64,000 nucleotides of DNA from Isoetes taiwanensis (lineage: Eukaryota; Streptophyta; Lycopodiopsida; Isoetales; Isoetaceae). Position 1 is the first letter of the stretch. Each line of letters opens with the position of its first letter. Shown one piece after another: positions 10,027 to 40,278 of this stretch. The notes under the pieces are model-generated. The model was given only the letters and a program-made list of their open reading frames with translations, was not told where the DNA came from and ran no database searches. The stretch spans positions 3,779,635 to 3,843,634 of the forward strand of contig JAJEKV010000099.1 of NCBI GenBank assembly GCA_021234155.1, given 5' to 3'. The position numbers and the translations under genes are program-made.

Positions 10027-10045
10027 CAGGGATAGGTTCAATACG
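10027..10045 (+). repeat. hAT terminal inverted repeat, left
   Basis: CAGGGATAGGTTCAATACG. It pairs with the reverse complement of 40260-40278 with a single mismatch. The CAGGG start is typical of plant hAT elements. Confidence 0.95.
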
Positions 10046-10148
10046 CTGTACATTTTATACTAAATACGTATGAATTGTATGATACGGCACAAATTTACCG
10101 TATAAAATGCAAAACATACGGCAAAAAACAATTCCGGCGTCGGAAAAT

Positions 10149-10349
10149 TTTCGCGTACGTGAAACCTTCAGAACCGCGTACGCGAAACCAAAATTTTTTC
10201 GCTTACGCGAAAACAACGCCACAGCGTACGCGAACTTTTTTTCGCGTACGCGGTTTAGTTGTTTTCGCGTACGTGGAAAATTTTGAACTTCACGTATGCG
10301 TTTCTGATGATTTCGCGTACGCGAAAGGGTGTTTCGGGTATGCGAAAAT
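10149..10349. promoter_or_regulatory. hAT left subterminal palindromic repeats
   Basis: At least nine variants of the palindrome TTCGCGTACGCGAA occur in 200 bases, in both orientations (near 10150, 10173, 10199, 10222, 10241, 10265, 10290, 10312 and 10336). Short subterminal repeats are the known transposase-binding sites of hAT elements such as Ac, so this is the likely binding array. The right end has a looser set of related motifs (GCGTCTGCGAA type) at about 39965-40105. Confidence 0.75.
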
Positions 10350-10430
10350 TTTCGACCTGTTTTGCCCAATTTACTAAACAAAAAAAATGTTTGCGCCCCT
10401 GTTTGGCCTATTTTGTGGCACTGTTAATAG

Positions 10431-10440
10431 TATATATAAG
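10431..10440 (+). promoter_or_regulatory. Candidate TATA box of the hAT transposase gene
   Basis: TATATATAAG lies about 345 bases upstream of the transposase ATG at 10785 and is the only good TATA-like match in this leader. The assignment is positional inference. Confidence 0.4.
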
Positions 10441-10784
10441 AAAAACGTGATTAGCCCTAGAATTCACCTCGAACGTTGACCGCCAGGTTGAGTCAAAATA
10501 CTCCTTGGGAAACGATTTGCCTTTGAGGTGTCGATTTTCGTGTCACGAGCCTGACGTTGGATACTGGAACGTGAGTTTACTCCGTCCCAGTAGTTTCCAG
10601 CCTTGGGTTCAAATCTGCTTCCATAAAATATCCTATAGGGTCCCGTCCAACCCCCCTTGATTCTCGCACGGAACGTCGACGTAACATATGCATTGTGAGC
10701 TTGCTCCTTTCCATATATACGTCTTCCTTTAGTTCGTGTAATCAAGGAGTCAGATTAAGAGAAATTGTCAGCCGGATCCGAGCA

Positions 10785-12906
10785 ATGGTGGCTACTGGTC
10801 ACGCATCTACCTCTGGAGGTGCAGGCAGCGGTCATGCATCCACTTCTAGAGGTGCGAGGACTGCGTGTGCCCGTGGCAGGGCCACGGGGACTCCAACTCG
10901 TCCACGTGGTCGCAGTACTGGAGTTGCGGGTCGGAAAAGAGGCTTAGAATGGGAGTTTGTGAAAGAGTTTGGCGTAAATGAGTGGGAATGTGTGTTTTGT
11001 GGATACTCATCGGTAAATGGTTCTGCAATAAGAATTCGAGCTCACATCTTACGTGAACGAGACGTCGGTGTCGCAACTTGTACTGCATCTGCTGACTTGC
11101 GAAAGGATGCCATTGAAAGATTGTCTCGACTAGATGGGATACGCAAAATGAAGAATAATATGAGAAAAAGACGAGTTACGAATACCCAAGAGCAGTGCCG
11201 AGCAGGCACCACCCCCCCTGTTGGGACAGCATACCAATCAGAGGAGGGTCAATAGGTATAAGCACGGGAGAACGGAGAATGATAGAGACAATTGAAATAG
11301 TGGAAAGACAGATGAAGCAATAGAGGGTTGATCATTGCTTAACATCAGAGCAACTGAAGAAGACGCAATTGAAGGTTGTAGAGGCATTTTTATATGCTGG
11401 GTTGTCTCCACATATTTTGGAGCACAAAGCAATGAAAGAAGCCTTCTAGGAAGTTGCCAAAGCAGGACCGGCTTTTAAATTGCCTTCATACAAGCATGCC
11501 AACAATAAAATGGTTGATGAAATACATGGAAAAATGGTTGAGAGGGTGGAGATGAAGTTGTGTCGTGTGACTGAAGCGCGGCCAGCTTCATTAGTGACTG
11601 ATGGTTGGAGCAATGTAAACAAGGACCATCTTATAAATTTCATGATCGTGTATCCAGGGGGTGAAGTATTTTTGAAAACCGTAGAAACCAAAACCACCAA
11701 GTAGGACCGGAGATTGGATTTTTCGAGAAAAAACAAAGGTCGTGATAGAGAGTTTTGGACCGAAGAGAATATTTCAAGTTGTAATGGATAACGCGTCTAA
11801 TTGCAAGCTAGCGGGTGAATTATTGAGTCTCAATTTCCGGGTTGCATGCTACTAGTTGCCAATGCCATTGCCCGAACCTATTCTTTGAAGGACCGGTTCT
11901 CACAGCACACGTGGTTCAAAGATCCCATTCAGAAAGCGCGTCGGCTTGTAAAATTCATCACAAAGAAGCCGGCAATTTATGCCATTTACAAGTCATTGCG
12001 TCAGAAGACCCTAGCACTCATGAATCCTGGCAAACTCGGTTTGGTTCCAATTACATCCGTCTTGAAAGAGTGCTTTGAAGTGTCGTGATTGGATTATCTC
12101 AACCTTTAATCATACGAGTTTTTGATTGGGAAAGGAGGCGAAAAGGGAAAAAATGCCGCCAAACACCGACAACAAGTCAAGCGCCCTTCGAAAATGCTTG
12201 GGCGGGAGACATTTTGGAAAGGTGTAAAAATGTTGTGAGGTGCATGCAACTTGTTTGTCATGCCATCAAAACCCTTGATTCTTCAAAGGCAAGCACTGGA
12301 AAGGTCTCGAGGTGTTGGCACTCCATTCAATCCTTCCGAGAACGTGATGGCCCCAATGCACCATTTGACAATGCTAAGCGCGCAGCACTACTCAGAGACT
12401 TCAATGAACGATGGAAGAAGTCATACAATGATCTTCATGGTGCCGCGCATGCCTTAGACCCACACAACCACGATATGGACCAGCATACAGATAAAGAAGT
12501 GATGGGCTCGTTGAAGAAGGTTGCAAAAATGTTCTATCCCAACAGCTTGGACTACAAGCTTTTCATTGCTGAGTTAACTGAATACTAGAACCTGAGTGGA
12601 AGGTGGGCAGATGAAGAGCTTCACGACGCAGTGGAGAGTCATAAGAAGGAACCAAATATGGAATCTTATGCATGGTGGCAAGCCCATGGGCAAGTTACTG
12701 ATACCTTGCAGGCAATTGCAATGACTATTCTCTCCTTGGTATCTTCCAATAGTGCAAGTGAGAGGAATTGGAGTGCCTATAAGTATATACACAGTGTCAC
12801 CCGCAATCGCTTGCTACATAAGAAGGTAGACAAACTTGTATACAACTTCTCAAACTGGCGGCTATTGAATCGCAACAGTGGTACATCCGCAATCGATAAG
12901 CTATAG
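10785..12906 (+). pseudogene. Degraded hAT transposase (BED finger, RNase-H-like core, dimerisation domain)
   Basis: The ATG at 10785 opens a Gly/Arg-rich N-terminus. A BED-type zinc finger follows (about 10985-11090, CVFC then His and Cys), and this frame stops at 11253. Further on, in other frames, are a DUF659-like segment with TDGWSN (about 11600), MDNASN (about 11787) and the hAT C-terminal dimerisation block with ASERNWSAYKYIHS (about 12760-12800), ending at a TAG after 12903. The Asp in TDGW, the Asp in MDNAS and the Glu in SERNW are the expected catalytic triad, so the active-site residues survive. At least two frame changes and several stops (for example at 11444, 11702 and 12586) break the gene. 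A conserved tail rich in Asp and Glu continues to about 13045. If functional it would cut and paste this family, but this copy cannot make full-length protein. Confidence 0.88.
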
Positions 12907-13045
12907 TTTCCTTTCATGGATCGCGATTCGGTGGAAGAGGACAGCTTCGAAGACAGTGAGGACGAGCTGCTTGCAATAAATGCTGCAAACCATGTTGATG
13001 AAGACATTCAACGTATACCCACTTCGTTGATGACGAAGATGATAT

Positions 13046-14354
13046 AGGCCAAGCCATATTCTCGCACGAGTCGGCCCGGCCGAGGACACCGAGGAGTCCG
13101 ATCTGAAAAGGCCGTGTCCGAGCAATGCAGTTGATGACTTGACTGGCCCACGTGATCCAGCGGACTCACCTTCACGTTTTGCCTTGACAAACAGAGATCG
13201 TGCTAGAAAAAACACTGGCCGAGGACGTTGCACTAAAGGAAAGGGTCATCGAAGGTTGAACCTAGGTCCCCAGGCAGAAGAGGATGGAATTGCGAATGAT
13301 GAAACTGATGAGGAAGGCGCTGCCTAGAAAAATGATGTGATAAGTATCTTCAGTATGTTGTAATTGGTCTTGAGGATTTTCATACTATTGTAACTGTCAC
13401 AGGCACTATTAATCCTATATTATAATGTTATTCAGTAAGTGTTGGACCCAGCCCTAAATCGAAGGGCCAGGATTTGATTGATTTAATTGAACGATTGGGA
13501 TCAGGGCAGGGCATCGGTGTAGAGTAGAGCAAGGCGTGGATCAGAGCAGAGCAGAGACTTGGTTCAGCTGAAGTAGAGCGGTCCGGTTCCGTTTATGTTG
13601 CTATGGATAGAAGGGAGAACTAGGGCAAAGAACGACGGCTGTGGTTTAGGGTTTGTTGTGGCAGCAAAATGACTATGGCAGATTCGAGCCTACAATCCAG
13701 GTCTCCGTTCTTCCAAAATCTCCTCCTTTATTTGGTTATCTGATGCTACTTCAGTCTTACAAACAATAATTCTCTTATCCGCTACATTCGCCCTATCTCG
13801 ATTTTTCAAAACCTTAATTTCTACAGCTCCTTCTTCTTTCCAAACCCTCCTGAGTTACCATTTCAATCAAACTTCTTTAAACTTTATCTCTTCCAAAATA
13901 CTATTGTTAATCGGGGAGTTGTTCCACGATGCATCCAAATGATTGGACAGAAAAGGAAAACGACCTTCAAAGAAGAATAATGTGTGATATTTCGTCAAGC
14001 TTGCTTCTTCTTCATAGAACAAAAGAGCAACTATGGTCTCAGTGGCCGGGGATCACCGCTGCGGGTAAAGGCCGGGGATCACCGAGAGGTAAAGGTGGTT
14101 GCATTCTTTTGTGTGAGGGTTATTTTGAGCGACTTCCTCAAAAACAATTTGAAATATTTGATTACTTATTGAATATTGAACCGTGTAGTTTGTCCAAATT
14201 TTGCCGAAGGTCTAGTCAGAATGCAATGTAGACGGGAAGAAAGAAAGAGAAGAAGCTTCAAAAGGAATTTGGTTGACATTTTTGAGATAAGCGTATCCTC
14301 ATGTACATAGGTGCTAGCCAGCTTAGGAAACTCAATTTAGTAATTTTTTTTTAT
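13046..14354. other. hAT interior without a recognised gene
   Basis: 13046-13327 is GC-rich and may be a degraded continuation of the transposase transcript. 13440-13920 holds nothing I recognise. A 100-codon frame at 13929-14231 has no motif and contains a local duplication (GGCCGGGGATCACCG, twice near 14044-14083). I call none of it a gene. Confidence 0.4.
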
Positions 14355-14361
14355 TTAATTC

Positions 14362-15853
14362 GGTTTCACATGTTCACTCTGTTTCCTTAGGAGATTGTCA
14401 AGGCATGTTCCCCGAAGTCGTCGGAATTCTATCCAAATTTTTCTAAAACTTGCAAATAAAGGAGTAGTTATTTTCTAATTTCGAGATTTGCTAGATGAGC
14501 AATTTTTAACCTTTCCTGCGAGTTTTGAAGATGCGCAAGAAGAGATTGCCTGGGGCATCCGCAAAACGCGTTGAGGGCATGCTTACTCGAGGAGGAGACA
14601 CCTTATACAAGCAAATGAGAGGTAACCAATGACTTGGAGAGCTTTGCAGATTTCACAAAGTATGCACAAAGGCACGATTCCTAAGACACAGTTCTAGGCA
14701 AAAAAGAATAGCATATTTATCCGGAAAGAAGAATAATTTAAGATGAGTCAAACATACCAGAAAAGAAGTGGTTCACATCACGGCCAGAGCGAGTTCATGA
14801 ACTATTTTCATAGGTTATGCATCTTTTTCCCCGTAGCTGAACCTCAATGATCAAGTCAAAGACATTCCCCAGAGGGTGAAACTAAGGGTTAAAACAAATG
14901 GAAGTGTAAAACAAGATATTTGTTACCCGTTGATTGGATCTTGCGCTGTTTTAACGGTTTCACATGTTTAGCTCTGTTTCCTTAGGAGATTGTCAAGGCA
15001 TGATCCCCGAAGTCGCCAAAATTCTATCCAAATTTTCTAAAACTTGCAAATGATTGGAGTAGTTATTTTCTAATTTCGTGGATTTGTTAAATGAGCAATT
15101 TTAACCTTTCTCAAGCAGAGTTTTGAAGATATGCAAGAAGAGATTGCCTGCACTGGGCATCCGCAAAACATTAAGGGCATGCTTATTCGAGGAGGAGACA
15201 TGTTATACAAGTCGAGAGGTAACCAATGACTTGGAGAGCTTTGCAGATTTCACAAAGTATTACAAAAGGCACATATTAGAAAGACACGCTTCTTGGCAAA
15301 AAAGGGATAGCATATTTATCCGGAAAGAAGAACAATCTAAGATGAGTCAAACATACCAGAAAAGAAGTGGTTCCACAAGAGAAGCAGAGTTCATGAACTA
15401 TTTTCATAGGTTATGCATCTTTTTTTAGTGTCTTGCAGAACCTCACGATCAAGTCAAAGACATTCCTGTGTAGGGTGAAACTAAGGTTAAAACAAATGGA
15501 AGTGTAAAACAAGATATTTGTTACCCGTTGATTGGATGCACCGCTTTAACGGTTTCACATGTTTAGCTCTGTTTCCTTAGGAGATTGTCAAGGCATGATC
15601 CATGAAGTCGTCGAATTCTATCCAAATTTTTCTAAAACTTGCAAAATGATTGGAGTAGTTATTTTCTAATTTCGGGATTTGTCGGATGAGCAATTTTTAA
15701 CCTTTCTGCAGAGTTTTGAAGATGCACAAGAAGAGATTGCCTGAGACCGGCATCTGCAAAACATTGAGGGCATGCTTACTTGAGAAGGAGGAGACACCTT
15801 ATACAAGCAGTCGAGAGGTAACCAATGACTTGGAGAGCTTTGCAAATTTCAAG
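14362..15853 (+). repeat. Tandem triplication, about 595-bp period
   Basis: The anchor GGTTTCACATGTT starts at 14362, 14956 and 15551, giving periods of 594 and 595. Copies 1 and 2 are complete. Copy 3 stops matching near 15853. The copies differ by scattered substitutions and short indels, so the duplication is not very recent. Confidence 0.9.
15123..15428 (+). CDS. Hypothetical ORF in triplication unit 2
   Basis: This is a 101-codon frame beginning MKICKKRLPALG and containing REVTNDLESFADF. The same N-terminal peptide, with changes, starts a 142-codon frame at 15716 in unit 3, while unit 1 is frameshifted. The relation simply follows the DNA repeat. I see no domain and no evidence of selection on the protein, so this may be non-coding. 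Confidence 0.2.
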   Translation: MKICKKRLPALGIRKTLRACLFEEETCYTSREVTNDLESFADFTKYYKRHILERHASWQKRDSIFIRKEEQSKMSQTYQKRSGSTREAEFMNYFHRLCIFF

Positions 15854-17308
15854 CCAGAAATACAGATATTTAAAGTCCACAAATGCTGTACGTGCAATCT
15901 GCTTTTATCCAGATATCTGAAGTTCACAAATGCCATAGGTGCTCTCATCATAGGTGCCATGCTACTGGGGCTGGCTTTAATCCTTCAAAATTCGATCCAA
16001 AGAGATAATTTACAACAACTATTTTTTCCTTTCTCATTGCGGATGATTTGTAGAAATTCTTTAGCTAATGATGAAACAAATCGAGAAAAGAATTTGTCAT
16101 CCGATTGGCGAATTTATTGTTGTACAAAGTATGTTGGTGTCTAGCAATATAGAAAGTTTGTGCATCATTTTTATTACGGTTGGGCATGTTCTACTAACCG
16201 ATATGGAAACAAAGTAGTTGAGATGTGTTAAACCCCCATCGAAAGTGAAACCATTTTCACCCTCTGAGATATGGAAACAAAGTAGTTGAGATTTGTGAAA
16301 CTACAAGTCCAATTGATAGAAGAAATCCAGATTCAAAATCAATATTACCATATCAATGCTTTTGGAAAAAGAATCCATTTCATAAAGTGGTACTTTAGCA
16401 TAAAGTGGTATGTTCATGACTTCATTTACACATTAAACTGTTCAGTATTGGAGCCAATGTAGTATAGCTGTTAAAACAAAATAGACCACCATAAAACAAA
16501 ATGGTCTCCATGCATCATAACGTGTCTCAAGAATCACAATGTTGTCGCACAACTTTTTCCAAAGAAATCCCAACAATACCTTATATTTTGTCCCCGTGCA
16601 CTTTGCAAGAATATGCAAAGCATCACCTTGCAAACTATAAAGTGTTCTTGACATTTTTCGGTTTTATTTTGCTCCTTCTGAGTTTTTGCCTTTTAGCCTA
16701 ATCCCGGTTTACAATTTTTTGCTTCACATCTAAGTTGTTGAATACATTTTATATTTCTAACATTTTATATTTCTAACATAACAACACAACAATTGTGGAT
16801 TGCTTCCAACTATGGCACATATAGAGTTTGGATGTCTTGATCAATTTTGCATTTCATAGCAGTATGATTGGAAACCGTTACTTCACAAGGAAACTGGATT
16901 AGGAAAATGAGACGACTTCTCAGGCACGATTGAGCGGTGATTGGATTGATTGTTAGGTGGGATTTATCATGATACAGGAGGTCCTCCTCATTTTGGGCTT
17001 CAAGTTTAAGGTTAGGTGGGATTTCCATTTAGAAGCTTTCTAAAACCTTATAACCAGGGTACTATCTTAACATCTCAAAACTTAATGGGCTTTGTGCTCA
17101 AAATACAACACATAATGGGTTTATCTTTTATAAAAGCCCAACATATGCAAAATAACCACATACAAAATTTGGATCACGTTAAGACCATTAAATTAATACA
17201 AACAAAACTCTTATACCATCAATCACGCATCTCCTCACTCTAAGCCCACTTCCAAGACATCACATGGAACGATCACAAAGGTGAACAATCACATGTAAAG
17301 CCCACCAA
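15854..17308. other. AT-rich hAT interior, no gene seen
   Basis: The 15716-16144 frame continues to 16144 with a hydrophobic stretch (about 15935-16000), but this is not enough to call a membrane protein. The remainder is AT-rich with short direct repeats such as GATATGGAAACAAAGTAGTTGAGAT (twice, about 16200-16292). Confidence 0.4.
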
Positions 17309-17509
17309 CAACGAGCAACAATATGAGATTTAGTACACAACATCAACAACTCATAGACATAGCCACATTAATTACAAGCAACGAGCAACAATATGAGATT
17401 TAGTACACAACATCAACAACTCATAGACATAGCCACATTAATTACAAGCAACGAGCAACAATATGAGATTAAGTACACAACATCAACAACTCATAGACAT
17501 GGCCACTTG
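17309..17509 (+). repeat. 70-bp tandem repeat, about 2.9 copies
   Basis: The unit starts ACGAGCAACAATATGAGATT at 17311, 17381 and 17451, exactly 70 bases apart. Copies are almost identical (one T/A change in copy 3), so this is a recent expansion. Confidence 0.95.
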
Positions 17510-17680
17510 CAACCTACAAGTTTCCAAAATGATCCAATGGCCTAAACTTGCAATCTGCAGGTTCCCAAGATGATCCAATGGCCTAGAAATTATTGTATGC
17601 AAATGTACAGTTCTAATGGCCTAGAAGTTACTTTAGGCAAATGCGCAAGTTCCCAAGTTCCAGCACTAGGTTCCAATTTT

Positions 17681-17709
17681 GCCCAGCAACGCTGGGCACC
17701 GTTACTAGT
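17681..17709 (+). mobile_element. Helitron-like 3' terminus on the + strand
   Basis: A 7-bp-stem hairpin (GCCCAGC-AAC-GCTGGGC) is followed after seven bases by CTAG and then T. A hairpin shortly before CTRR, followed by a T of the target, is the Helitron 3' signature. An inverted copy lies at 20470-20498. No Rep/helicase gene is near, so any element would be non-autonomous. Confidence 0.4.
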
Positions 17710-17836
17710 AAAAAGTAAAGTTTTTTGTTATAATTTTTTGTTACAAATGTTTCGTTCATGTATGATGGTTCTTTCTTTCATGTATACAGTATGATGGTTC
17801 TTTCTATGTTTCTTTCACGTGTACGCCAAATAGGGA

Positions 17837-18027
17837 ATAACTTCGGTACGCCAAATCGACATGTGAATGCCATCCGGACCTATAATTTGTACTCTATTCC
17901 TCTGGATGGCACATGCTCTGAATACCAAGTGGGTTTGCATGGCATGTGCCACCCAAAGGAATGGAGGTACAAATTATAGGTCTGGATGGCATTCAAATGA
18001 TGATTTGGCATACCGGAATTATGCCTC
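17837..18027. mobile_element. Fold-back MITE-like element 1
   Basis: The two halves are inverted repeats of about 90 bases. The left arm starts ATAACTTCGGTACGCC. The right arm, reversed, starts GGCATAATTCCGGTATGCC. Both share ATGCCATC(C/A)(G/A)GACCTATAATTTG. A related copy with the same order of sequence occurs at 19330-19521. The near-complete hairpin and lack of coding capacity fit a fold-back MITE. I could not define a target duplication. Confidence 0.7.
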
Positions 18028-18339
18028 ACCACTCCGTCGACCGTAGTGCCCTCAGAACCCTCCTCGGATCAGACCCGTCTCGACTTTCGTTGCTGCTTGC
18101 CTCTTTGCATGCCATAGAACCTTACTGATGAGAAGTAAACTACGCATGCCAAGAGGACAAACAGCCACGGACCAGCTGTGACGAATCTGATCCATCAGAA
18201 GGTTCTGAAGGCACATGATCCATATCCACATTCAGATAGTACATTCAGAATTCGTCAATCACTAATCTCTAATGAACCCATAGAATCGCAATCAACCACC
18301 AGGCTGATATCCTCCGCGACCACAATAAAAAGAGTACTC

Positions 18340-18507
18340 AAAATCTTGTTACCTCCGTCTAGAACGAACGATTTTTGCTCTGAATCCCATTTTGAGCCTC
18401 TCCATGTAATACAACCTAGCAAAGTATCTAAGCTATATTGACACAGAGAGACTACAAAAGAGATTCAGAGCAAAGCTCGCTCTTTCTAAAGGAGATAACA
18501 AGAATTT
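18340..18507. repeat. Long imperfect hairpin, copy 1
   Basis: The left arm begins AAAATCTTGTTACCTCC and the right arm ends with its complement, GGAGATAACAAGAATTT. The arms pair imperfectly over about 75 bases around a centre near 18425. A second copy lies at about 18943-19110. Confidence 0.7.
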
Positions 18508-18622
18508 CGAGAAGTCTATATTGTTTGCCGCGAAGAATATCAAACCTGGTGAGTGAGTTCACAACCATTCAAGAGGATCACGATCCAGGCTCACTCCCTT
18601 TTCAATTAGCCTATTTATATAT

Positions 18623-18678
18623 ATCTAAAGTGCCCCCTAAAATGAACCCGCGATCTCATCCCAGGGGGCACTTTAGAT
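18623..18678. repeat. Short perfect hairpin
   Basis: ATCTAAAGTGCCCCCT is followed 24 bases later by its exact reverse complement. A 16-bp perfect stem of this kind is unlikely by chance. It may be a remnant of another fold-back unit. Confidence 0.8.
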
Positions 18679-18942
18679 ACAATAAACAGGACAAACAAAA
18701 GAGACTAAGCAAGGACCTGGCCTGAGTGCAAGCATCGAGACTTCCCAATCCTTGCTTTGACCTCTCTTTGGACAATGGAACTTAGCATGTAAACTAAGCT
18801 ATATTGCCCAAAGAGGAGGTCGAAGAAAGATTGGGAAGTCTCGATGCTTGAACTCATCAATCACTAACATCCAATGAACCCACAGAATCGCAAGCAACCA
18901 CAAGGCTGATATTATCCGCGACCACAATACTGATAGAGTACT

Positions 18943-19110
18943 CAAAAACCTTGTAATTTCCTCTAGAACGAGCGATGTTTTCTCTGGGTCCTCTTCTGGG
19001 CGTCTTTGTGTAATGTAACCTAGCAAAGTAACTAAGCTACATTGACACAGAGACACCCAAAAGAGAGCCAGAGCAAAGCTCGCTCTTTCTAAAGGAGGTA
19101 ACAAGAATTT
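18943..19110. repeat. Long imperfect hairpin, copy 2
   Basis: Direct repeat of the 18340-18507 hairpin with scattered changes, about 603 bases downstream. The flanking sequence is also repeated (GGCTGATATTATCCGCGACC before it, CGAGAAGTCTATATTG after it). Confidence 0.75.
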
Positions 19111-19329
19111 CGAGAAGTCTATATTGTTCGCCGCAAACAATATCAAGCTTGGTGAGCTGACAGCCATCAAACGACCTGAGTGCAAGCATCGAGACTTCCC
19201 AGTCCTTGCTTTCCCCCCTCTTTGGACAATGGAACTTAGCATGTAAACTAAGCTACACTGCCCAAAGAGGAGAGGAAAAAAAGACTGGGAAGTCTCGATG
19301 CTTGAACCCATCAATCACTGACATCCAAT

Positions 19330-19521
19330 GGCATAACTTCGGTATGCCAAATTGGGATTTGAATGTTATCCGGACCTATAATTTGTACTCTATTCCTCTG
19401 GGTGGCACATGCTCTGAATACCAAATGGGTTTGCATGGCATGTGCCACCCAAAGGAATGGAGGTACAAATTATAGGTCCTGATGGCATTCAAATGCCAAT
19501 TTGGCGTACCAGAGTTACGCC
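19330..19521. mobile_element. Fold-back MITE-like element 2
   Basis: Second copy of the 17837-18027 fold-back in the same orientation. It is inserted between hairpin units of the cluster. Its terminal arms read GGCATAACTTCGGTATGCC and, reversed, GGCGTAACTCTGGTACGCC. Confidence 0.7.
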
Positions 19522-19911
19522 TCACCAATCTGTCGACCGGGCACTTTAGATACAACAAAGAGGACAAACAAAAGAGACTAAGCCAGGATCGACCTGAGTG
19601 CAAACATCGAGACTTCCCAGTCTTTGCCTTCACTCGCCTCTCTGGACAATGGAACTTAGCATGTAAACCAAGCTACGTTGCCCAAAGAGGCAGGGGAAAG
19701 AAAAATGGGGAAGTCTCGATGCTTGAACTCATCAGAACCATCCAATCGACCTGAGTGCAAGCATCGAGACTTCCCAATCCTTGCTTTCCCCCTTCTTTGG
19801 ACAATGGAACTTAGCATGTAAACTAAGCTGCATTGCTCAAAGAGGAGGGGAAGGAAAGATTGGGAAGTCTCGATGCTTGAACTCATCAATCACTTCACTA
19901 ACATCTAATTT

Positions 19912-20012
19912 GCAACCTAAAACAAGTGAGCGATCTCATCCTACGGGGGAAATTAGATACACCAAACAGGACGAACGAAAGAGACTAAGCCAGGGTGAGC
20001 GATTTGGAAGTC
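19912..20012 (+). repeat. 100-bp dispersed repeat, copy 1 (second at 25361-25472)
   Basis: Begins GCAACCTAAAACAAGTGAGC. The same sequence occurs at 25361 with a few substitutions and the same downstream TTTGGAAGTCTCGATGCT. It links the hairpin cluster with the region 5 kb to the right. Confidence 0.9.
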
Positions 20013-20498: not shown

Positions 20499-20510
20499 AT
20501 AAGTTGGAAG

Positions 20511-23877: not shown

Positions 23878-23891
23878 GAAATCAGTAATGT

Positions 23892-29699: not shown

Positions 29700-29729
29700 C
29701 TGCAAAGGATGAATACCTTAGAAATATAG

Positions 29730-30278: not shown

Positions 30279-30294
30279 GTCTCTCATTGGCGAC

Positions 30295-31859
30295 TCAACA
30301 CAATGTATCAAATAGTCGCACATTCTCCGATGCTTGCCTTGCTGCTCCAGGCTTCCTACCTATTGACTCCATGTAGGAGTGCTTACTAGCAAAGTCAGCC
30401 AAGTAGTAGACAATGTAGGCTGCCTCGTGCAAACCAATGTCAATCCTTGCAGGCACTGTCTTCGAGCCACTACCAAAAAAAAAGATCATCGTGCATATAT
30501 GGATGCATGGCCCTTTCCATCTCAATTCTTTTCTTACCCTCGCCATCCAAACCCTTGTAATGCCATCGTTTTACCTCTACTGTCTCATTGATCAACCTAG
30601 ATTCACCCCAATCACAAATGCCAATGTATACAGCCTGAGGATCAATACATCCCTTCCTTTCCATAATCAAAATGGAGCAATATATTTCCCGGATGCAAGT
30701 CCATATGCAAATATCTTTCTTGATGGAGTTTTCGTAGCCCGCTGCAAAATGACATTGCAAAGTCCCCAACCCTAGAGGCAACAAATAATTCTTTCTTTCT
30801 GCGCCCCTCAAGCAACCTCAAGTCTGTCTCAACTTTGGGGACAGCTCCTAACTTCTTGAATGCAAGCTCTGCAAAAGCATTGCTTCCATGACTTGTAAAG
30901 AAGGTTGCCAACGAACCTCCATTCCAAAAAGGGAAAATTAACCCTTGTCTTTCTAGGCCGGTTGTGCTACCAATGCACCGTATTATACACCCGTGCCTAA
31001 CTTTCATTCCAGACTCCCTCATGTTCTTCAACATAGCTTGCACTAACTTATTGGGATCTGTACTTAGGTGAAAATTATCATGTTGAAGTTTTACACAATA
31101 AGGTTCATCCTTAATAAAACTAGACCCTAAAATATTGCACTTATACACGGCGCCATATGAACCAGAACCAATTCGTTGTATGTTTATTATTTGTGATGAA
31201 CTTTGGCAAACCAAGTTGTCTTGGCATCTGCTCTTCTACGAGCTTCCCACTCCCTATCTGTCTCACCAGAACGTTTGGCTTTTATGGTTTGCGCCAACAC
31301 TTTCTTAACAAAATGAGGGAGTTGATGGGCTTCTTTCTTTAATTTTCTGTTGGTCCACGCCACATTCCATGTGCTGGCTTTTTCTTTTAGCTCTAGCCTC
31401 AAGCGATGACTACTCAAATTTGAAACTTCTGTGATCATATTCCCGGTAGTGCGGCTAATATTACCCACTATCCATGTATACCTCTCTTGCTCACACTTTT
31501 CGGGCTCTAGATCCATCATTCGAAGTTTAAAAGCCCTCTCGGCATCTTTTACCAAGTCTGCATAGTAGTCTAGCCATCCTTCCTTACTGTTGGTAATCAA
31601 TTCCAAATCCCGAGCCGAGGCATTGCACAGCCGATTACACAACCAGTTCATAAATTCTGGTCTCAAAGTAGACCATGCTTGTTGTGGTCTACTTCTTTTT
31701 CTACGCGGCAATGCTGCAGAACCCTGCAGAAGATGACTCAAGTTGCAACTCTGTAGCCTCTGTTTGGGACGCCAATGCCTCTACTAGTTGCGGCTCTATT
31801 TGAGACGTTAATGCCACATTTGGTTGGGGGTTAACTTCTGCTCTCTCTTCTGAAGTCAT
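30295..31859 (-). pseudogene. Protein kinase gene broken by frameshifts
   Basis: The ATG at 31859 opens an acidic N-terminus. A basic helical region follows (31741-31187, for example RRKRSRPQQAW and LDYYADLVKDAERAFKL). The kinase domain has the glycine loop IGSGSYGAVYK, YCVKL (ATP-binding Lys), HMDLHPGNILL (catalytic loop, HRD changed to HMD) and ICDWGESRL (DWG for DFG). The frame changes at about 31750, 31195, 30660 and 30478, the last at a nine-base homopolymer. It could be a real pseudogene, a gene with unseen introns, or a sequence with homopolymer errors. The substrate is unknown. It lies upstream of repeat module X in the hAT interval, opposite in strand to the transposase. Confidence 0.7.
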
Positions 31860-32836: not shown

Positions 32837-32879
32837 AAACACAACAAGAAAAGGGTCATTTAGCGACGCCAATAACGAC

Positions 32880-33330
32880 GTCTGCTTGCGGCGATGCGTC
32901 GGCGACGTCGACGGGCGCCGCCAGCGCCGCTGGGACGTCGTTGAGACTACGTCCGCATGCGGCGTCGGCGTCGTCGCATGTGACGTTATCGGCGTCAGCG
33001 CGACGTCAGCGCAGACGTGCGCTATGACGTCGCATGGCACGTGACACGTGAAATATACACGTGGAATATACACGTGGAACATCACCAAAATCCACGCGTG
33101 CCGTAAATGCCACGTGTATACGTCGCATGCGACGTGACACGTGGAATTTACACGTGGAATATACACGTGGAATATACACGTGCGTAAAAGCCACGTGTTT
33201 ACGTCGCATGCGACGTGACACGTGGAATATACACGTGGAATATACACGTGGAAAATTCGAAAACCCGCGTATAGAAAAGCCACGTGGCAAAAAAAAAGCC
33301 ACGTGGATACGTCGCATGCGACGTGTAGGG
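32880..33330. promoter_or_regulatory. CACTA subterminal block 1: palindromes and G-boxes
   Basis: Dense copies of ACGTCGCATGCGACGT and ACACGTGGAATATACACGTG. The hexamer CACGTG (G-box, bound by bZIP and bHLH factors) occurs more than ten times. In En/Spm, subterminal repeats bind TNPA, so a similar role is likely. It is very CpG-rich relative to flanks. Confidence 0.8.
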
Positions 33331-33338
33331 GAAAAAAA

Positions 33339-33343
33339 TAAAA

Positions 33344-33368
<25 letters not shown>
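33339..33368 (+). repeat. (AT)n microsatellite
   Basis: Uninterrupted AT dinucleotides followed by AT-rich degenerate repeats (TATTTTTAAATAATCACAAAA type) to about 33520. Confidence 0.9.
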
Positions 33369-33374
<6 letters not shown>

Positions 33375-33559
33375 AAAAATATAAATATAAAAATATTTTT
33401 AAATAATCACAAAAGTGTTTTTATATTCATATTTTTAAATAGTCACAAAATTATTTTTGTATTTATATTTTTAAATAATCACAAAAGTGAATTGTATTTA
33501 TATTTTTAAATAATCACAAAAGACTCGTTAAGAGGAGTATCCACCCTTTTAGCCTAGAG

Positions 33560-35960
33560 CTAATCTCTCTCAGATTCGATTGGAGTAGTCATCCGAGTAC
33601 GCGTAGTTAGAGGGGCGCCATAACCGTCGGCCCGCTGCGGTTGGCGATTGGATGGCTCTCCAGCAATGTTTGCAGATCCCTCGCCGCCCCCGAGCACCAT
33701 GTCATGCTCTAGACCTTCATTCATATCCGCCACTGCTTCCTATAAAAACCAAAAGAATATGGCGTTAATGTAGTTCATAGAATTATAATAATTTTCTACA
33801 ACGCACCCCCCATTCCCGCCAAGTGGGAGAGTTCCCTCGTCGATAACCGTTGATACAGATAAACGGCTCCACGCCCGCGGTGGCTACTTGTACGTCTTTG
33901 CTTGTTAGGGCTTAAACCAGGTATAGATGTTCCTATGACAATATAACGAGTATTAGCTAGTGACATTTAAAGTTCTTATTAAAATTAATGTGAACTAATA
34001 TAGCTCTTACGAATCTATGGAAAAACCCTTTTCGATCACGGAGGGCAAATGAGAGCGGCTTTTTGCTCACTTTTAGTTGCTTTGTCGGTCCGAGCTCTAT
34101 GTTTTTTTCCTTCCTTTGCACGCTCGAATGCAATCTGATTGCAAGGCACACAACATTATCACAAGTTAAAGTGAACGAATGACAAAAAATAAGAAATACC
34201 TTGATATCTTCCTTGTGGAGATTAAGTGGTTTAGGGACTTTTGACCAATCGCCTCCTTCTTTTTTCGCAAAGTCCGCTTCGGTTCCTTGACCACATTGTG
34301 CCTTTGACATACATCGGTAGATCAACGCAATATCAAAATAATAAAAACAAGACTATGACTAGGTCATGTACCTCCTTTTTTCGTATAAGTCTTCCCCATC
34401 ATCGAAGTGAGCTTCTTCCAGTTAAACGCCTTTGCTTTTTCTATCTCTGGGAAACTCTGTTTCATTTTATTTTTGACGCTCTATTTCGCGTTGGTCATAA
34501 GCGCCAGGCCACTCCCCTATACCGCGGGGAGGCCATAAACGAGAGATATTATTTGTGACCGCCCCTCGATTGTAGTATAAAAGACACTTCCCTCATCATC
34601 CTTCTTAGGAAGAGCGTCCCCCGAAGCATAAATGGTGGGTATATAAAAGCGTGTTTATGTCTACCGTCAATATACATATCCCGTCCCGATTAAGAACCTT
34701 TTGAGCACTTTACAATGTATTCTAAGTGAAGAGAATGAACAAAACAACAAATTTAGATGACAAAGTACTAATATTTAAGGTTGATATCTTAAATAATATG
34801 TTCACATAACTTACATCAAAAAATTATTATTAATATGATAGTCGGGTATATTCGGGGCCAAATCACCCGCAGACTTACGTGTCTAAAACAAAGCGAAATG
34901 GACGCTCCTTCGTGTTCTTTCACGCAGGGGAACACTCAGCGTTGAGCGGCACCCATCCACATTATTGATGAATCGGGTTACTGCTTCAGTTTCATATGCC
35001 TCTATGGACAACATTAAACCAAAATCCACATCTAGTTTGGAGGAGACATCAGCATCATCTACCTACATATTTAGATATCATAAACATCTTGAATATATAC
35101 TTGAACTGAAAGAGATACTCTTAAAAAAAAAAAAAACAAATAATAATTGTATACCAACCTGATATCCATGACGAGCATCAGATCTGGTGGGTTGTTCAAA
35201 TGTACCAAATCTTATCAGATGGTCTTCAACAACCGTTCTAAGTCGTCTCTTCAGCCCCATACATCTTTTACAATCGCAAACTATTTTGTCCCTCCGCCAA
35301 TTACAAAACGTAAGTACTATATAATTGCACAATAGTTTGAACTACCGTGATAGATACAATATATGGTAGTATAAACCCTAAACCCTAAATCCTAAATGGA
35401 TGAATTGGGCCCGGACATCGTAGTCCTCTCCACTCAAGGTGAAGCCGACCATGCCCTTTCCGAAAAAATGCCCTTATATAAGTTTCAATTTCAATAAAGA
35501 TCTTTTGGAGACGCTAGCCCTCGATACATAGAGTCCCCTCCACTCAAGGTGAAGTCGACATATGACCTTGACTACGCGACACCTCAATTTTGTAATCTAC
35601 ATTGTACTTAGTAAGGTATGAAGGTGAGTTTGGGCCTGGCACACCTGGTCCTCTCCACTCAAGGTGGAGGCGACCGTGTCCTTGACCAAAAACACCCTGC
35701 TTTTTTTTACTCATGCGATTACGCCCTCTCCTAGTTTAGGAGGCGACCGTGTCCTTGACCAAAAACACCTGCGTTTTTTTTTTACTACTCGCAGTACACG
35801 TCCTCTCCTAGTTTATATATGTCTAGGCTACTAAATACAAGAATCAGTAACTTACATGTGACGGTTCCGCATATCCAGCCTCCCCTGGTGGTAAGACAAC
35901 ATCAATCTGTCTCCTGGCCATCTCCAGGCGTCGATCATGCCGATGACCATGGCGATCCAT
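33560..35960 (-). CDS. CACTA-internal multi-exon gene (transposase-associated-like domain)
   Basis: The ATG at 35960 starts MDRHGHRHDRRLEMARRQ, and the exon ends at 35856 before GTAAGTT. A further exon ends at 35159 before GTTGG and carries CDCKRC with VEDHLIRFG. This Cys/His-containing pattern is like the transposase-associated domain of plant CACTA tnp2 proteins. An exon from about 35063 reads VDDADVSSKLDVDFG. Others lie near 34440-34330 and 34280-34200. The last exon, 33739-33560, follows a good acceptor and ends IESERD. The order of exons is plausible, but not every junction could be fixed and one internal frame is closed. The large tnp2 catalytic core is absent, so this is more like an accessory DNA-binding protein or a deleted transposase. 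Confidence 0.5.
35370..35830 (+). repeat. Degenerate tandem repeat within the CACTA gene (intron)
   Basis: CCTCTCCACTCAAGGTG(A/G)AG(G/C)CGAC recurs at about 35425, 35527 and 35650. CCTCTCCTAGTTTA with GGCGACCGTGTCCTTGACC recurs at about 35690-35760. Spacing is irregular, 75-125 bases. Confidence 0.75.
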
Positions 35961-36083
35961 GTAGGGCAGCAACAAGTATAAGATATGGTTAAAAAGAAGA
36001 ACACCAAAGGCGCTAGGCTGGAAGAGGAGCGAAAGAAAATAACAATGAAGGCCGAGAAAAAAGTTGTTTATATAGAAATCTTT

Positions 36084-36440
36084 AACGTCGCATGCGACGT
36101 GACGTCGCCGGCGACGTAGTGTCAACGGTCACATGCCAGGTCACCTACGACTTGGCAGTACACCCGCAAATACGTCGCATCGTGTCATAATGTTTCGTAG
36201 ACCACGCCGCATCGACGATAGTCAACGGTCAAAATCCGGTCACATGCGACCGGCAAAGACACGCAATGCGTACGCATCGACGTCTCTCGGTTCAGACGCG
36301 TCCACGTCGCATGCGACGTATAGTCAACGGTCAAATTCCAGGGCACATGCGACCTAGCAGTACACGTGGCAAATACGTACTGGCGTGTCTTATGTTCTGT
36401 AATGTCACATGACGTCGCATGCGACGTCTGACATTTGTCG
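36084..36440. promoter_or_regulatory. CACTA subterminal block 2
   Basis: Copies of CGTCGCATGCGACGT are mixed with TAGTCAACGGTCA and CACATGCGACC. It lies just upstream of the ATG at 35960, so it may be both the original 5' terminal region and the promoter area. Repeats of TGACATTTGTCG follow at 36430-36470 and 36605-36640. Confidence 0.75.
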
Positions 36441-36640
36441 TGACATTTGTCGTGACATTTGTCGGTTATGAAATTTATGTATACCTATGCTGTTCTGAGC
36501 AACCTGAAATCTGAGCAAGTTTTGTGTAACAACCTAAAATCTGCATACCTTAAAACACTTGAACATAGCTTGATTAGCTGCATCACAGAGCAAATTGCGT
36601 GACAGGTCTGACATTTGCCGTGACATTTGTCGTGACGATG

Positions 36641-37361
36641 CCAGGTGGGCGATGGCGTTTTTTAGGCAAATTTTGATCAGACGCTTTGACACATGGGACA
36701 TTAATGCCTTGGATTTGCAAGGAGTCGTCGTGCAAGCGCTTCTCCCACTATCTTTGGACACCAAGTTCCTCATTCAGATTGCATTTTGTTGCTTCTCTAA
36801 AGATGTTGGACTGAGGATATGGGAGTCCCACTTTTTGACTACCCAATCTTCTCGTTGTAGAAATTCTAGGGGTAAATCCATATGTCATTTCTAATTCCTT
36901 CTTTTTTCTCTTTCTCTGGATCAACCAGAAGCTAAATTATGAGCTCAAAAAATTCTGGATCAACCATCTCCAACTCCATGTCCATCACTAAATTCATCTG
37001 CTTTTTCAAAATACCCATAGCACAAATAGGCCTATATAAATTAAAACAAGCAATATTATTGTCATATCCTTATTCATCGTGGCATTCATCTTCTTGATAT
37101 CCATCCTGATCATATTCATCTTCTTCATATTTTTATCTTCAAATTCCATTTTGAAAAACTGATTTCAGAAATCTATATCATATCATATATCCAGTTTTTT
37201 GTATTCTACATCATGCTTATATACATAAGGCAGTGCCTCAAAAATTCTGGATCAACCATAAGCTAAATTCTGAGCTCAAAAAATTCTGGATCAACCAGGA
37301 GCTAATCTGAGCTCAAAACTACCATATTATAGTTATATCAAAAGATAGAATTTAAGTTGCT
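36641..37361. other. No gene seen inside the CACTA cargo region
   Basis: A 99-codon frame at 36595-36894 has no motif. AAAAAATTCTGGATCAACCA recurs at about 36945, 37240 and 37278, a short dispersed repeat. Confidence 0.4.
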
Positions 37362-37704
37362 TCAATACCAAATATCGACTCCAAACAGCCTGAAAACTTT
37401 CTGCAAAGGGTCATTTGCATCCTCGTGATCAACACCGTAATTTCCAAACCAAATAGAAGGATCCCTTCGCCGGTGATGTAAATTTTTACCTTGGATATCT
37501 CTCTCAAACGAAACCACATCATTCACCTGCAAATTCTTTGCCTTGACAAATCTGCTCCAGCCTTTTGTGAAGACATAACTTTGGGAACTATCCCAATAAC
37601 AGTATCTAAATTTCCACATGCATTGATTTTCATCTTTTTTTTTTCTCCACAATTCCATCGCAAGGCAAATGTGCTTCTGCGTTGATTTTTGGAATGACGA
37701 GCTG
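37362..37704 (-). pseudogene. Captured RAV/NGATHA-type B3 exon
   Basis: After a strong acceptor (TTTTTTGTTTCAG) at 37705 the exon reads LVIPK, then AEAHLP. A 10-base A run shifts the frame. It then continues KFRYCYWDSSQSYVFTKGWS, RFVKAKNLQVNDVVSFER and, near the stop, RLFGVDIWY. The B3 core and the RLFGV repression motif are diagnostic of plant RAV/NGATHA transcription factors. The frameshift and missing first part of B3 make it non-functional as it stands. Confidence 0.85.
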
Positions 37705-37738
37705 AAACAAAAAATCCAACGCAGAATCAGTTATCAAA

Positions 37739-37975
37739 TCAAGCTGCCCACTTGGTTGCACAAGCACGAAATGAAATGCCAGTCTCAAGGACTTTCTTAT
37801 CTAACCAATCTACACTATCTTGAGAGCCAACTAGATCCACCACAGAAATATCTGGTGGAGTGTCTAGCATAATATCCTCTAGGCTGAACTTTTGTGGCAC
37901 GCATGGCTCAGTATCAAACGTGAATCCAAGCTCTCTGAAAAGATGACGCGCATCATTTTCTATACTCCTTGCCAA
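37739..37975 (-). CDS. Hypothetical ORF upstream of the B3 exon
   Basis: A 78-codon frame with FSLEDIMLDTPPDISVVDLV. It is on the same strand as the B3 exon and 34 bases upstream of it. I do not recognise it, and it may be from another captured gene. Confidence 0.25.
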   Translation of the reverse strand: MARSIENDARHLFRELGFTFDTEPCVPQKFSLEDIMLDTPPDISVVDLVGSQDSVDWLDKKVLETGISFRACATKWAA

Positions 37976-38034
37976 CCCTGATTGTTTGCACCTTGATTGT
38001 TTGCCCTAAATCGCTTTAAAAACAATGGGAACAT

Positions 38035-38362
38035 GAATTGAAGGAAAAAGTAGTACCATCTGTCAAGCTATCTGTGTACATATACCATGAAGATCAGAGA
38101 AGAATAAATTGTGTTGAACTTTGTAAGCACGACATTGTGCTTACTACATATGGAACCATTTGTTCTGAATTACAGAAGCCATCTGAAGAGGATGAAAAGA
38201 AGCAGCCCCCCAGGCTAAGGGGCACACTGTCGAACATTAGGTGGTTTAGAATTATTCTGGATGAAGCTCAATCCATTAGAAATGCTCACACTAAAAGTTC
38301 ATGTGCTTGCTGGGGCTTAAGGGCACAATGAAGATGGTGCCTTTCTGGAACATGCGACCTTC
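38035..38362 (+). pseudogene. Captured SNF2-family (RAD5/HLTF-like) ATPase fragment, part 1
   Basis: The frame reads KLSVYIYHED, HDIVLTTYG, RWFRIILDEAQSIRNAHT and, after one stop, RWCLSG. These match helicase motif II (DEAQ in place of DEAH) and the following W-C-L-S/T-G block of the RAD5/HLTF/CHR group. The Walker A (motif I) region is absent. The stop lies between LRAQ and RWC at about 38329. Confidence 0.85.
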
Positions 38363-38399
38363 TACGACACATATGTCACATACGTCACATATACGAAAG

Positions 38400-38417
38400 T
38401 TCTAGAATGTTCTAGAA
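38400..38417. promoter_or_regulatory. Perfect four-unit heat-shock element
   Basis: TTCTAGAATGTTCTAGAA contains TTC, GAA, TTC and GAA, each separated by two bases. This is the exact nTTCnnGAAn spacing bound by heat-shock factor trimers. Confidence 0.75.
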
Positions 38418-38470
38418 AGTTTTAAAAAGTTTTAAAATATAAGAGAATCTTGGGTGAGCCTAAGGAATCC

Positions 38471-38508
38471 TTCTAGAAAATTCCAGAATGTTGTAGAAAG
38501 TTCTAGAA
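38471..38508. promoter_or_regulatory. Extended heat-shock element array (eight units, one imperfect)
   Basis: Four 10-base repeats read TTCtaGAA, TTCcaGAA, TTGtaGAA and TTCtaGAA with two-base spacers. Only the third TTC is changed (TTG). It is 53 bases downstream of the first array. Confidence 0.75.
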
Positions 38509-38549
38509 TGAATGTTGCGAGAGAATACACTTATTTTCTTCCCAAAGCC

Positions 38550-38936
38550 AGAGCTATGTTCCAATTCCACTTTCCATGTATGGATCTCCGAAACAAGGCC
38601 ATCAACAGGTGTAGCCACATAGTATCTCGGCTTTTCAAAATCCTCATCAATGGGGTCGGCTTCATATGGAACTTGTGCAATTGAAACGCAAATTCCTCCA
38701 CCATCATATATCACAAAATCATCCAGACGTTTGGCAGGTAAAGTTGCAAGTTCAAGCATTGCTGCTGATTCCAACCTTGATGTTGATCTTTCAACTTCCA
38801 TAGTGCCATTAGAATTACTTGTATACCCAGCATGAGATTTTAGATCATAACCTTCTTCCCCCTGTATTGACGTATCCATATGTGCTTCTTTGGTTTGCTG
38901 ATATAGTTCCTGACAATATTTTTCCAGCTCTTGCAA
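38550..38936 (-). pseudogene. Captured fragment, possibly MET1-type replication-foci domain
   Basis: The minus-strand frame has an acidic N-terminal part with ELEKYCQELYQQ, then LATLPAKRLDDFVIYDGGG and TPVDGLVSEIHTWKVE. The LP-x-RRLDDF-x-x-x-D-G pattern is like the replication-foci domain of plant CG-maintenance DNA methyltransferases. The remaining similarity is weak, so the identity is tentative. The frame runs out into the heat-shock-element array. It lies in opposite orientation between two pieces of the SNF2 gene, so the region is a chimera. Confidence 0.35.
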
Positions 38937-39153
38937 GCTCTCAAAGCCCCCAAAAAAACCATTTTCCGCAGTTCGGTTTCTGAAGAGTCTAGATGAAGGA
39001 GGTAAACCTAGAATCCGCCATCAGGACGTCGGGACAAGCGGCTGCAAGTCATATTAAACACTATAATGCTTCGGCGGACAAAAGGTAAAAGTGTGGGATT
39101 TTTCTTGTGTTCTTGCACAAATTTTAAGGCTTTATCATGTTCTTCTCTCAGCA

Positions 39154-39250
39154 ACAATGATTGACAACAAGCCTATTGTCAAGTTACCTTCAAGGATTGT
39201 AAACTTGGAACAACTAGATTTTGACACAGACAACGTCAGTTTTATAATGA
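39154..39250 (+). pseudogene. Captured SNF2-family fragment, part 2
   Basis: After an acceptor-like CTCTCAG the frame reads ATMIDNKPIVKLPSRIVN then LEQLDFDT. This corresponds to the block after helicase motif IV in RAD5/HLTF-like proteins (KPI-x-x-LPP-x-T pattern). It is on the same strand as part 1, about 0.8 kb downstream. Confidence 0.6.
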
Positions 39251-39419
39251 ACAATTTATAGCGGTAGCACATCTACTGTGATGATGCATGCGCAGGCAAC
39301 ACGCTTTAAATGAAGCCTGCGGGTTGGTCGTCGAGTCTTTTTCGCATTGCGGTATCAATCGGGGCCATTATTGAATTTGTAATCCTAAAAACCATTAACC
39401 TTCGTGTATAAAAAAATAT

Positions 39420-39800
39420 ACGTCACATCGCGACCACCCTACGTCACATATACGTCTTGGACGTGTCATATCGTCACATATACATCTTGGCGTGTCATAT
39501 CGACATATATACGTCTTGGCGTGTCATATACGACACATATACATACCGGCGTGTCATATACGACACATACGTCACATACGACACATACGTCACATATACG
39601 ACGTCGCATGCGACGTGACGTCGTAAACATCCACCTGGCATGCAGACATGTCACCTGTCGTCCACCTGGCGCAAGCGTCCACCTGGCGTGTGTCAGACGT
39701 CGCATTACACGTCGCATGACGTCGCATGCGACGATGTTCCGACGTCGCGTCGCCGCGAGCGTCGCCGCGATGGCGTTATTTCGCGGCGTCCGCGTCGCCT
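39420..39800. promoter_or_regulatory. CACTA subterminal block 3
   Basis: Repeats of TACGTC(T/A)(T/C)GGCGTGTCATA and ACGTCACATA lead into CGTCGCATGCGACGT copies (about 39602, 39716) and CCACCTGGCG repeats. This is the inverted counterpart of block 1 next to the right terminal repeat. Confidence 0.8.
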
Positions 39801-39849
39801 GCACGTCGCAAAGCCCACGTCGCTAAATGTCCATTCTCTTGTTGTGAAA

Positions 39850-40259
39850 CTAAGAAAAATAAAAAAAAAAGGTTTTGGGGGCAAGTTAGAAGGTTTGGCG
39901 CAGAAGAATACCTTCTTTGCGGCGCAAAAACTGAATCCCCGCGCCGCATATATAAAAAAATTCAGCGTCTGCGAAAACCCGTGAAAGCGTCTGTGAAAAC
40001 TTTTTGCATCATAAAACGTGCTAAAGCGCATCGCGAACATCATACCCGGTTTAGCGTCTGTAAATGACTGGATTGCGTATCGCGAAAAATTTTCCAGCGT
40101 CTGCCGAATGTCGAACTTTCCGTCCTTTTCTTGTTGCGACCCTTTGTATTTCGCGACCCTTTTTTTTTCCCCGCGGCGAGATCTTTATATGTTAAATACA
40201 TATTTTATTAAAAAATACGTTTTTTATTAACTTTATACGTCAGGAATTTTAATTTTGTA
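39850..40259. promoter_or_regulatory. hAT right subterminal region
   Basis: Motifs such as GCGTCTGCGAA, GCATCGCGAAC and GCGTATCGCGAAA recur at about 39965-40105. They are similar in kind to the left palindromes but more diverged. The last 60 bases are AT-rich with repeated TACGT. Confidence 0.6.
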
Positions 40260-40278
40260 CGTATAGAACCTATCCCTG
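40260..40278 (-). repeat. hAT terminal inverted repeat, right
   Basis: Reverse complement reads CAGGGATAGGTTCTATACG; one mismatch to the left end. Confidence 0.95.

Follow-up and report, generated by a model that had tools for sequence, protein, structure and literature searches.

A 30-kb hAT insertion in the Isoetes taiwanensis genome, swollen by nested elements, and the kinase and RING genes at the core of its family

Cut-and-paste transposons typically contain just one or two genes, and a 30,252-bp hAT insertion with several genes in Isoetes taiwanensis raises the question of whether it is a giant element that moves with its cargo or an element swollen by later insertions. It occupies positions 10027-40278 of the 64,000-nucleotide stretch analyzed here (the window: GenBank assembly GCA_021234155.1, contig JAJEKV010000099.1, positions 3,779,635 to 3,843,634; Table 1). 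Its left and right terminal inverted repeats (TIRs) match at 18 of 19 bp, and the 8-bp target-site duplication GCCCTTAG is exact on both sides (chance of about 1 in 65,000 for a given pair of ends), bearing out the single insertion recognized in a preliminary description of this DNA. With high probability, the insertion represents a hAT family with a long form of about 11 kb, in which a kinase and a RING gene are core genes under selection, probably with an accessory role, and this copy was swollen by four nested insertions; the structural part of this explanation we regard as very likely.

The host sequence around the insertion is duplicated within the window, and the two segments align on either side of it (9938-10026 versus 41916-42004, 97.8% identity; 6483-7170 versus 41242-41921, 89.8%; to the right of the insertion, 40299-40358 versus 43166-43225, 95%). 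The flanks thus rejoin as the paralogous segment predicts, which indicates a real insertion and argues against an assembly chimera. The preliminary description had placed the uninterrupted target at 41997-42004, where a single GCCCTTAG is indeed found between paralogous flanks, but we reject this position as a clean empty allele, as it belongs to a paralogous duplicated segment with a later insertion of its own: to the right of the single GCCCTTAG just six further bases match (GCCAAT), and homology returns at 43166, an interruption that has CAATTG at each edge and looks like a separate insertion of about 1.16 kb. A second assembled locus, C979, has the same right junction, duplication, and flank, and copies window positions 34907-46710 at 94-96% identity. 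Of the two host segments, the one that bears the hAT has also received an insertion of 2.77 kb at 7171-9938, which runs from TG to CA, is flanked by GTTAG on either side, and has ends of the long terminal repeat type.

Searches of the same genome (1.66 Gb, 1110 contigs, with B3, PPR, and DUF659 families that suggest a land plant; C-labels denote its contigs or loci) with the 200-bp ends of the element recovered 1662 candidates for the left and 1108 for the right end, these and the other genome-wide candidate numbers below being rough first-look counts, from which the best 40 loci per query were scored or listed. The preliminary description had allowed that the two ends might never occur together elsewhere; they co-occur in copies of several sizes and are therefore partners, namely in two of about 0.65 kb (L009, L010) and in C907 (11.2 kb; duplication CCGTCGTA) with exact 8-bp duplications, and in C23 (5.3 kb), C954 (6.7 kb), and C1095 (10.9 kb) with duplications matching at 7 of 8 positions. 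Short TIRs, 8-bp duplications, a hAT transposase region, and copies at loci with differing duplications together place the family among the hATs. The window copy is colinear with C907, C1095, C920, and C954 except for four blocks, their deletions, and differences in a repeat block, and C23 is a shortened form with the same order; no right end was found for C920, and this copy is therefore silent on the last of the four blocks (32840-39846). The four blocks (4296, 4886, 2911, and 7007 bp) sum to 19,100 bp and leave a core of 11,152 bp, in agreement with the complete relatives in C907 (11,228 bp) and C1095 (10,945 bp), which identifies the window copy as this core plus nested inserts. Between the hAT ends, the core comprises the transposase on the plus strand, a tandem-repeat block, and then, on the minus strand, the RING/coiled-coil gene and the kinase gene.

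The junctions of three of the four inserts are base-exact against the long relatives. Helitrons are recognized by a 5' TC, a 3' hairpin followed by CTRR, and insertion between A and T with no duplication, and the first two inserts (H1 and H2) have such termini; no Helitron Rep/helicase occurs among the open reading frames (ORFs) scanned, a scan that was not a systematic search. The empty site of H1 is evident from C920, on which the comparison rests as C1095 and C907 differ near this point, with the joined flanks matching at 89.5% over 124 columns. Its 3' end recurs in the genome, with two 109-bp copies of 100% identity on the window's own contig (C1110:3688390-3688498 and 3705912-3706020), 74-91 kb upstream of the window, hinting at recent local copying. 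H2 is absent from C920, C1095, C907, and C954; its exact empty site was not seen, the adjoining repeat block differing among copies. The third insert, which interrupts the kinase gene, is absent at the corresponding place in C920, C1095, C954, and C907, where the kinase is uninterrupted; we found in it no TIR, no duplication and, by eye, no Helitron signature. It carries catalase (Pfam matches of 3e-29 and 1.1e-24) and PPR-like exons (PPR_2, 2e-6, slightly under the cut-off). The repeat at its left edge is highly abundant (2859 candidates), and at C35, C1093, C1062, and C1019, too, a catalase piece is found within about 2 kb of it. Many scored copies of this repeat (27366-27680 and 45579-46035 in the window) are separated by only a few bases from a partial second copy in inverted orientation, e.g., at window 45898/45899. 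Elements of the CACTA superfamily have TIRs starting with CACTA or CACTG; the fourth insert, with TIRs of about 29 bp, repeats near both ends, and an AAA duplication judged against the empty site, starts with CACAA and is hence labeled CACTA-like. It is absent from C23, C1095, C907, and C954, and its left end matches from the first query base at each of the 40 loci scored, 39 of which lie elsewhere. It carries fragments of B3 (3.9e-14) and SNF2 (6.9e-12) genes, and a CACTA transposase was not among the ORFs scanned, the insert not having been searched systematically.

The preliminary description had weighed a true giant hAT against one swollen by nesting, and it is the swelling that explains 19.1 of the 30.25 kb. 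Were the whole 30 kb, inclusive of nested elements and gene fragments, to have moved as a single cargo unit, the intact ends and duplication around it would be accounted for, and other swollen copies may exist, as the transposase and kinase lie 17-24 kb apart at C1029, C922, and C1047 and 13.6 and 28 kb apart at C1053, though the last distances might span separate copies. However, the long relatives lack all four blocks, three of which have base-exact junctions or termini of their own and the fourth Helitron termini, and none of the 39 non-window loci listed for the B3 block, which has many copies of its own, has a listed kinase or RING locus less than 50 kb away. We saw the B3 block next to this hAT end at one further locus, C979, which has the flank and duplication of the window and is therefore a segmental copy rather than a product of a jump. 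We therefore reject the giant unit, to which we assign only a very slight probability, and likewise reject B3, SNF2, catalase, and PPR as hAT cargo. The window copy illustrates how an element enlarged by nesting can pass for a giant cargo transposon; the two can be told apart by removing inserts that have their own ends and then asking which genes recur and stay selected. There is nothing out of the ordinary in nested insertion as such, in Helitrons, or in CACTA-like elements that carry gene fragments.

Of the genes that remain in the core, the transposase had been noticed in the preliminary description, and this holds by homology: two window ORFs of the region gave no match in Pfam scans, but the homologous region of C920 and C907 matches DUF659 (4.9e-26) and Dimer_Tnp_hAT (1.9e-9). 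Over 11257-12906, identity with the 39 other loci scored is 88-96%, and the window version carries frameshifts and stops. The minus-strand kinase and coiled-coil/RING-like genes reported earlier are likewise present, both broken in the window, such that all three genes of this copy are defective. First-look candidates number 552 for the kinase and 469 for RING. In the transposase, kinase, and RING lists, each the best 40 of roughly 470-670 candidates, a kinase and/or RING match lies on the opposite strand within 30 kb at 18 of the 39 non-window transposase loci, and a RING match lies on the same strand at 17 of the 39 non-window kinase loci, with the matched stretches 553-611 bp apart as against 3510 bp in the interrupted window copy. 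The hAT right terminus (match to at least base 124 of 127) accompanies 27 of those 39 kinase loci, 7 of the 39 stretches having been placed with prior knowledge of the hAT end. Both complete approximately 11-kb copies (C907, C1095) carry the pair. Thus, the genes that recur with the transposase are the kinase and RING; given this recurrence at fixed spacing and the purifying selection described below, they are core genes of the family, and the earlier view of them as unusual passengers stands as to their presence but not as to their being accidental cargo.

RING/coiled-coil forms a single open frame of 468 aa in C954, and the kinase has stop-to-stop frames of 526 aa in C920 and 502 aa in C907, each shortened at one end by a shift; the kinase of the relatives matches PK_Tyr_Ser-Thr (1.2e-11). 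The hallmarks of protein kinases are a Gly loop, the VAIK Lys, the HRD Asp and Asn, and the DFG Asp. All these motifs are present, with HMD in place of HRD and DWG in place of DFG, and K181, D311, N316, and D341 are each found in 18 of 18 copies. A RING finger has eight zinc ligands, seven of which are kept here in 17/17 to 19/19 copies, with the one exception of the ligand residue Cys C348 (18/19). Searches of the PDB with phmmer returned only weak RAF matches for the kinase (best 5.5e-4) and weaker ones for RING (best 0.015), and we claim no finer class for either.

In the 15 copies shared by all four alignments (RING, kinase, and noncoding), the first, second, and third codon positions diverge by 0.067, 0.054, and 0.123 in RING and by 0.036, 0.033, and 0.071 in the kinase, i.e., third positions diverge about twice as much as the first two in both genes, while adjacent noncoding DNA diverges by 0.083-0.091. 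A first look at codons gave a median pairwise ratio of nonsynonymous to synonymous rates (dN/dS) of 0.27 for both genes; the accompanying frameshift counts were probably inflated in some rows by gapped blastn and are not used as lesion counts. We then placed substitutions on trees of 19 RING rows (C1079 dropped, coverage 0.46) and 18 kinase rows (C149 and C379 dropped, coverage 0.00 and 0.57) from 20 copies and compared them with 300 simulations of a null matched for base composition and CpG context. The nonsynonymous/synonymous ratio (N/S) relative to neutral is 0.34 for RING and 0.41 for the kinase on internal branches and 0.64 and 0.51, respectively, on terminal branches, with none of the 300 simulations as low in nonsynonymous changes in any of the four cases. 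New stops follow suit: 2 observed against 14.8 expected (RING) and 2 against 7.8 (kinase) on internal branches, and 19 against 27.5 and 13 against 19.6 on terminal ones. The kinase and RING genes are accordingly under purifying selection, strongest on internal branches, a pattern that marks genes which still-jumping lineages require and which are freed from constraint once a copy has inserted.

This could also be read as host genes captured once and amplified by the hAT as passive Pack-type passengers, useless to the element. Gene capture is described as common in plant DNA transposons (PMC8903248, PMC2528002), many copies have frameshifts and stops, and the transposase itself yields a weak selection signal. 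Nevertheless, purifying selection after the shared capture, beyond a matched neutral null and strongest on internal branches, together with invariant catalytic residues and conserved place and spacing, makes such passengers improbable. Pack-TYPE elements are non-autonomous and have no transposase gene; the core has a transposase region in the same unit, broken in the copies read.

Several observations weigh against the explanation of kinase and RING as selected accessory genes of this family. The sample is biased toward copies that match the window best, and no single copy among the five long ones read (window, C920, C1095, C954, C907) has all three genes open. The RING Pfam matches in the relatives are weak, all but one falling below the cut-off, and the eighth Cys is missing, with an Asp near its place in 18 of 19 copies. 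At 12 of the 39 kinase loci, the 851-bp stretch examined has no complete right hAT end (in one it is partial, in 11 absent); among the 27 loci that do have one, two or more pairs share a flank, leaving fewer than 27 independent insertions. In a sample of 6-7 shallow transposase copies (its two parts kept in 7/7 and 6/7, C954 being without the second), N/S is 0.59-0.85 of the null and only one of four tests lies beyond 5% (1 of 300 simulations), the remaining three being weak (53, 86, and 197 of 300). Finally, third-position divergence is unequal (RING 0.123, kinase 0.071, transposase 0.045-0.047, the last from other copies), suggesting mosaic exchange between copies, so that the elements may be mosaics.

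The unequal divergence of RING and kinase also hints at exchange of another kind, in which the pair would be useful to the plant, or the family would exchange sequence with functional host genes, and the hAT would merely spread the pair; the constraint on terminal branches fits selection at this level. Set against it are the hundreds of first-look candidates for each gene and the fixed arrangement with the transposase and ends in the copies read, and we consider it quite improbable. Selection for the element's own spread remains our preferred explanation, with the kinase and RING probably acting as accessory proteins of the transposon, as judged from sequence.

The homology, ends, and duplications indicate that the element would be moved by the hAT transposase. 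The kinase and RING proteins would act in trans, either on the element itself or on factors of the host, and broken or shortened copies would rely on rarer functional ones. The side-by-side kinase and E3-like protein suggest a target that is phosphorylated and then ubiquitinated; speculatively, this target might be the transposase itself or a factor of silencing or of the cell cycle. We tentatively propose a selected two-enzyme module, in which the kinase and RING E3 might together mark a restriction factor of the host by phosphorylation and ubiquitination or set the timing of transposase activity, with the odds on present evidence somewhat against it; a specific anti-silencing role, taken by itself, we hold to be rather unlikely. 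If true, the module would be a hAT counterpart of the VANC and Kaonashi anti-silencing genes, working via signaling instead of DNA recognition. As a hAT of high copy number in which a kinase and a RING gene are under selection, the family offers a testable case of a DNA transposon exploiting host-type signaling enzymes to spread.

The nearest analog is the ULP1 domain of the Kaonashi Mutator-like elements (MULEs), described as conserved, captured, and suggested to be advantageous (PMC13317346). Kaonashi elements (KI-MULE, KIU) are similarly high-copy DNA transposons with a captured enzyme gene, which in KI-MULE is in reverse orientation to the transposase (PMC13317346; PMC2528002), but they are MULEs with a protease, whereas the present family is a hAT with a kinase and RING. 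Grapevine hATs are reported with TIRs of 8-23 bp and 8-bp duplications (PMC2528002). Plant hATs such as Ac, Bg, and Hatvine share with this family 8-bp duplications, short TIRs, a transposase with the hAT dimerization region, and short derivatives resembling miniature inverted-repeat transposable elements, to which the family adds RING and kinase genes opposite the transposase, a tandem-repeat block, and a length of about 11 kb. Captures by hATs are on record in Hatvine-6 (PMC2528002) and Pack-hAT (PMC8903248), where hAT ends likewise surround host sequence; as described there, the captures are variable, often unique to a copy, or the elements non-autonomous, in contrast to the one gene pair shared, similarly placed, and selected here. 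The fungal ToxhAT is also a cargo element (14 kb) and was formerly called a hAT, but has a TA duplication, for which its authors suggest Tc1/mariner affinity and the name ToxTA (PMC12506042). A word search of a review of giant eukaryotic transposons returned no mention of hAT (PMC6431247). Among the titles and abstract openings of open-access papers that our searches listed, two of the listings covering 15 of 885 and 15 of 36 papers, we found no hAT with a kinase and RING, which is weak evidence of absence from print as most subscription papers and preprints fall outside that scope. The nested inserts resemble Helitrons and Pack-CACTA in their termini or duplications and in the host gene fragments inside them, the fourth differing from Pack-CACTA by its CACAA start.

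Table 1. Features of the hAT insertion and its target in the window
Feature	Position	Strand	Remarks
Left 8-bp target-site duplication GCCCTTAG	10019-10026		One copy at paralogous site 41997-42004
Left TIR, 19 bp, 18 matches to right TIR	10027-10045	+	Terminus CAGGGATAGGTTCAATACG directly after GCCCTTAG
hAT transposase region, broken in window copy	10575-12906	+	DUF659, Dimer_Tnp_hAT in same region of C920, C907
Helitron H1, nested	13413-17708	+	5' TC, 3' hairpin then CTAG, between A and T
Tandem-repeat block of hAT core	17709-20470		Tandem Repeats Finder (TRF); related repeats at corresponding place in C920, C1095, C907
Helitron H2, nested	20471-25356	-	3' hairpin as in H1, similar 5' end, opposite strand
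RING/coiled-coil gene	25550-26924	-	RING Pfam matches; 468 aa in C954; frameshifted in window
Kinase gene, 3' end, severed by nested insert	27207-27365	-	Window kinase matches at 30277-31628 and 27207-27365
Unclassified 2.9-kb insert within kinase gene	27366-30276		Catalase and PPR-like exons, minus strand
Kinase gene, main part, start codon inferred	30277-31859	-	PK_Tyr_Ser-Thr 5.6e-12 in window; frameshifted
CACTA-like element, nested	32840-39846		TIR CACAACAAGA, 3-bp duplication AAA, subterminal repeats; B3 (minus) and SNF2 (plus) fragments
hAT right part including right TIR	39847-40278	+	Terminus CGTATAGAACCTATCCCTG ends at 40278
Right 8-bp target-site duplication GCCCTTAG	40279-40286		Same junction in C979
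Paralogous unoccupied target	41916-42004	+	Single GCCCTTAG at 41997-42004

Beyond the insertion, a tandem array with units of about 1.1 kb and a GC content of 56-61% from about 49 kb onward extends from 47529 to the right end of the window (64000); an Rfam scan of the window, inclusive of this array, returned nothing at gathering thresholds. At C979:1092071-1130806 (L013-L017), the 1.1-kb array is on the other side relative to the window, pointing to a segmental duplication, a divergent haplotype, or a misjoin. Two pairs of hAT copies share right-flank bases (C1053:3379320 and 3393727, ATTCCCTCTG; C978 and C1058, GTTTTTTCAA), and such shared-flank copies probably arose by local or segmental duplication. 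C919:1347102-1354971 (L012) was considered as one 7.9-kb copy and rejected, being the left part of one hAT followed by a second hAT of 3.1 kb, which has its own duplication (CTCTAGAA) and lies within the repeat block of a copy of the same family; the family, therefore, also inserts into itself.

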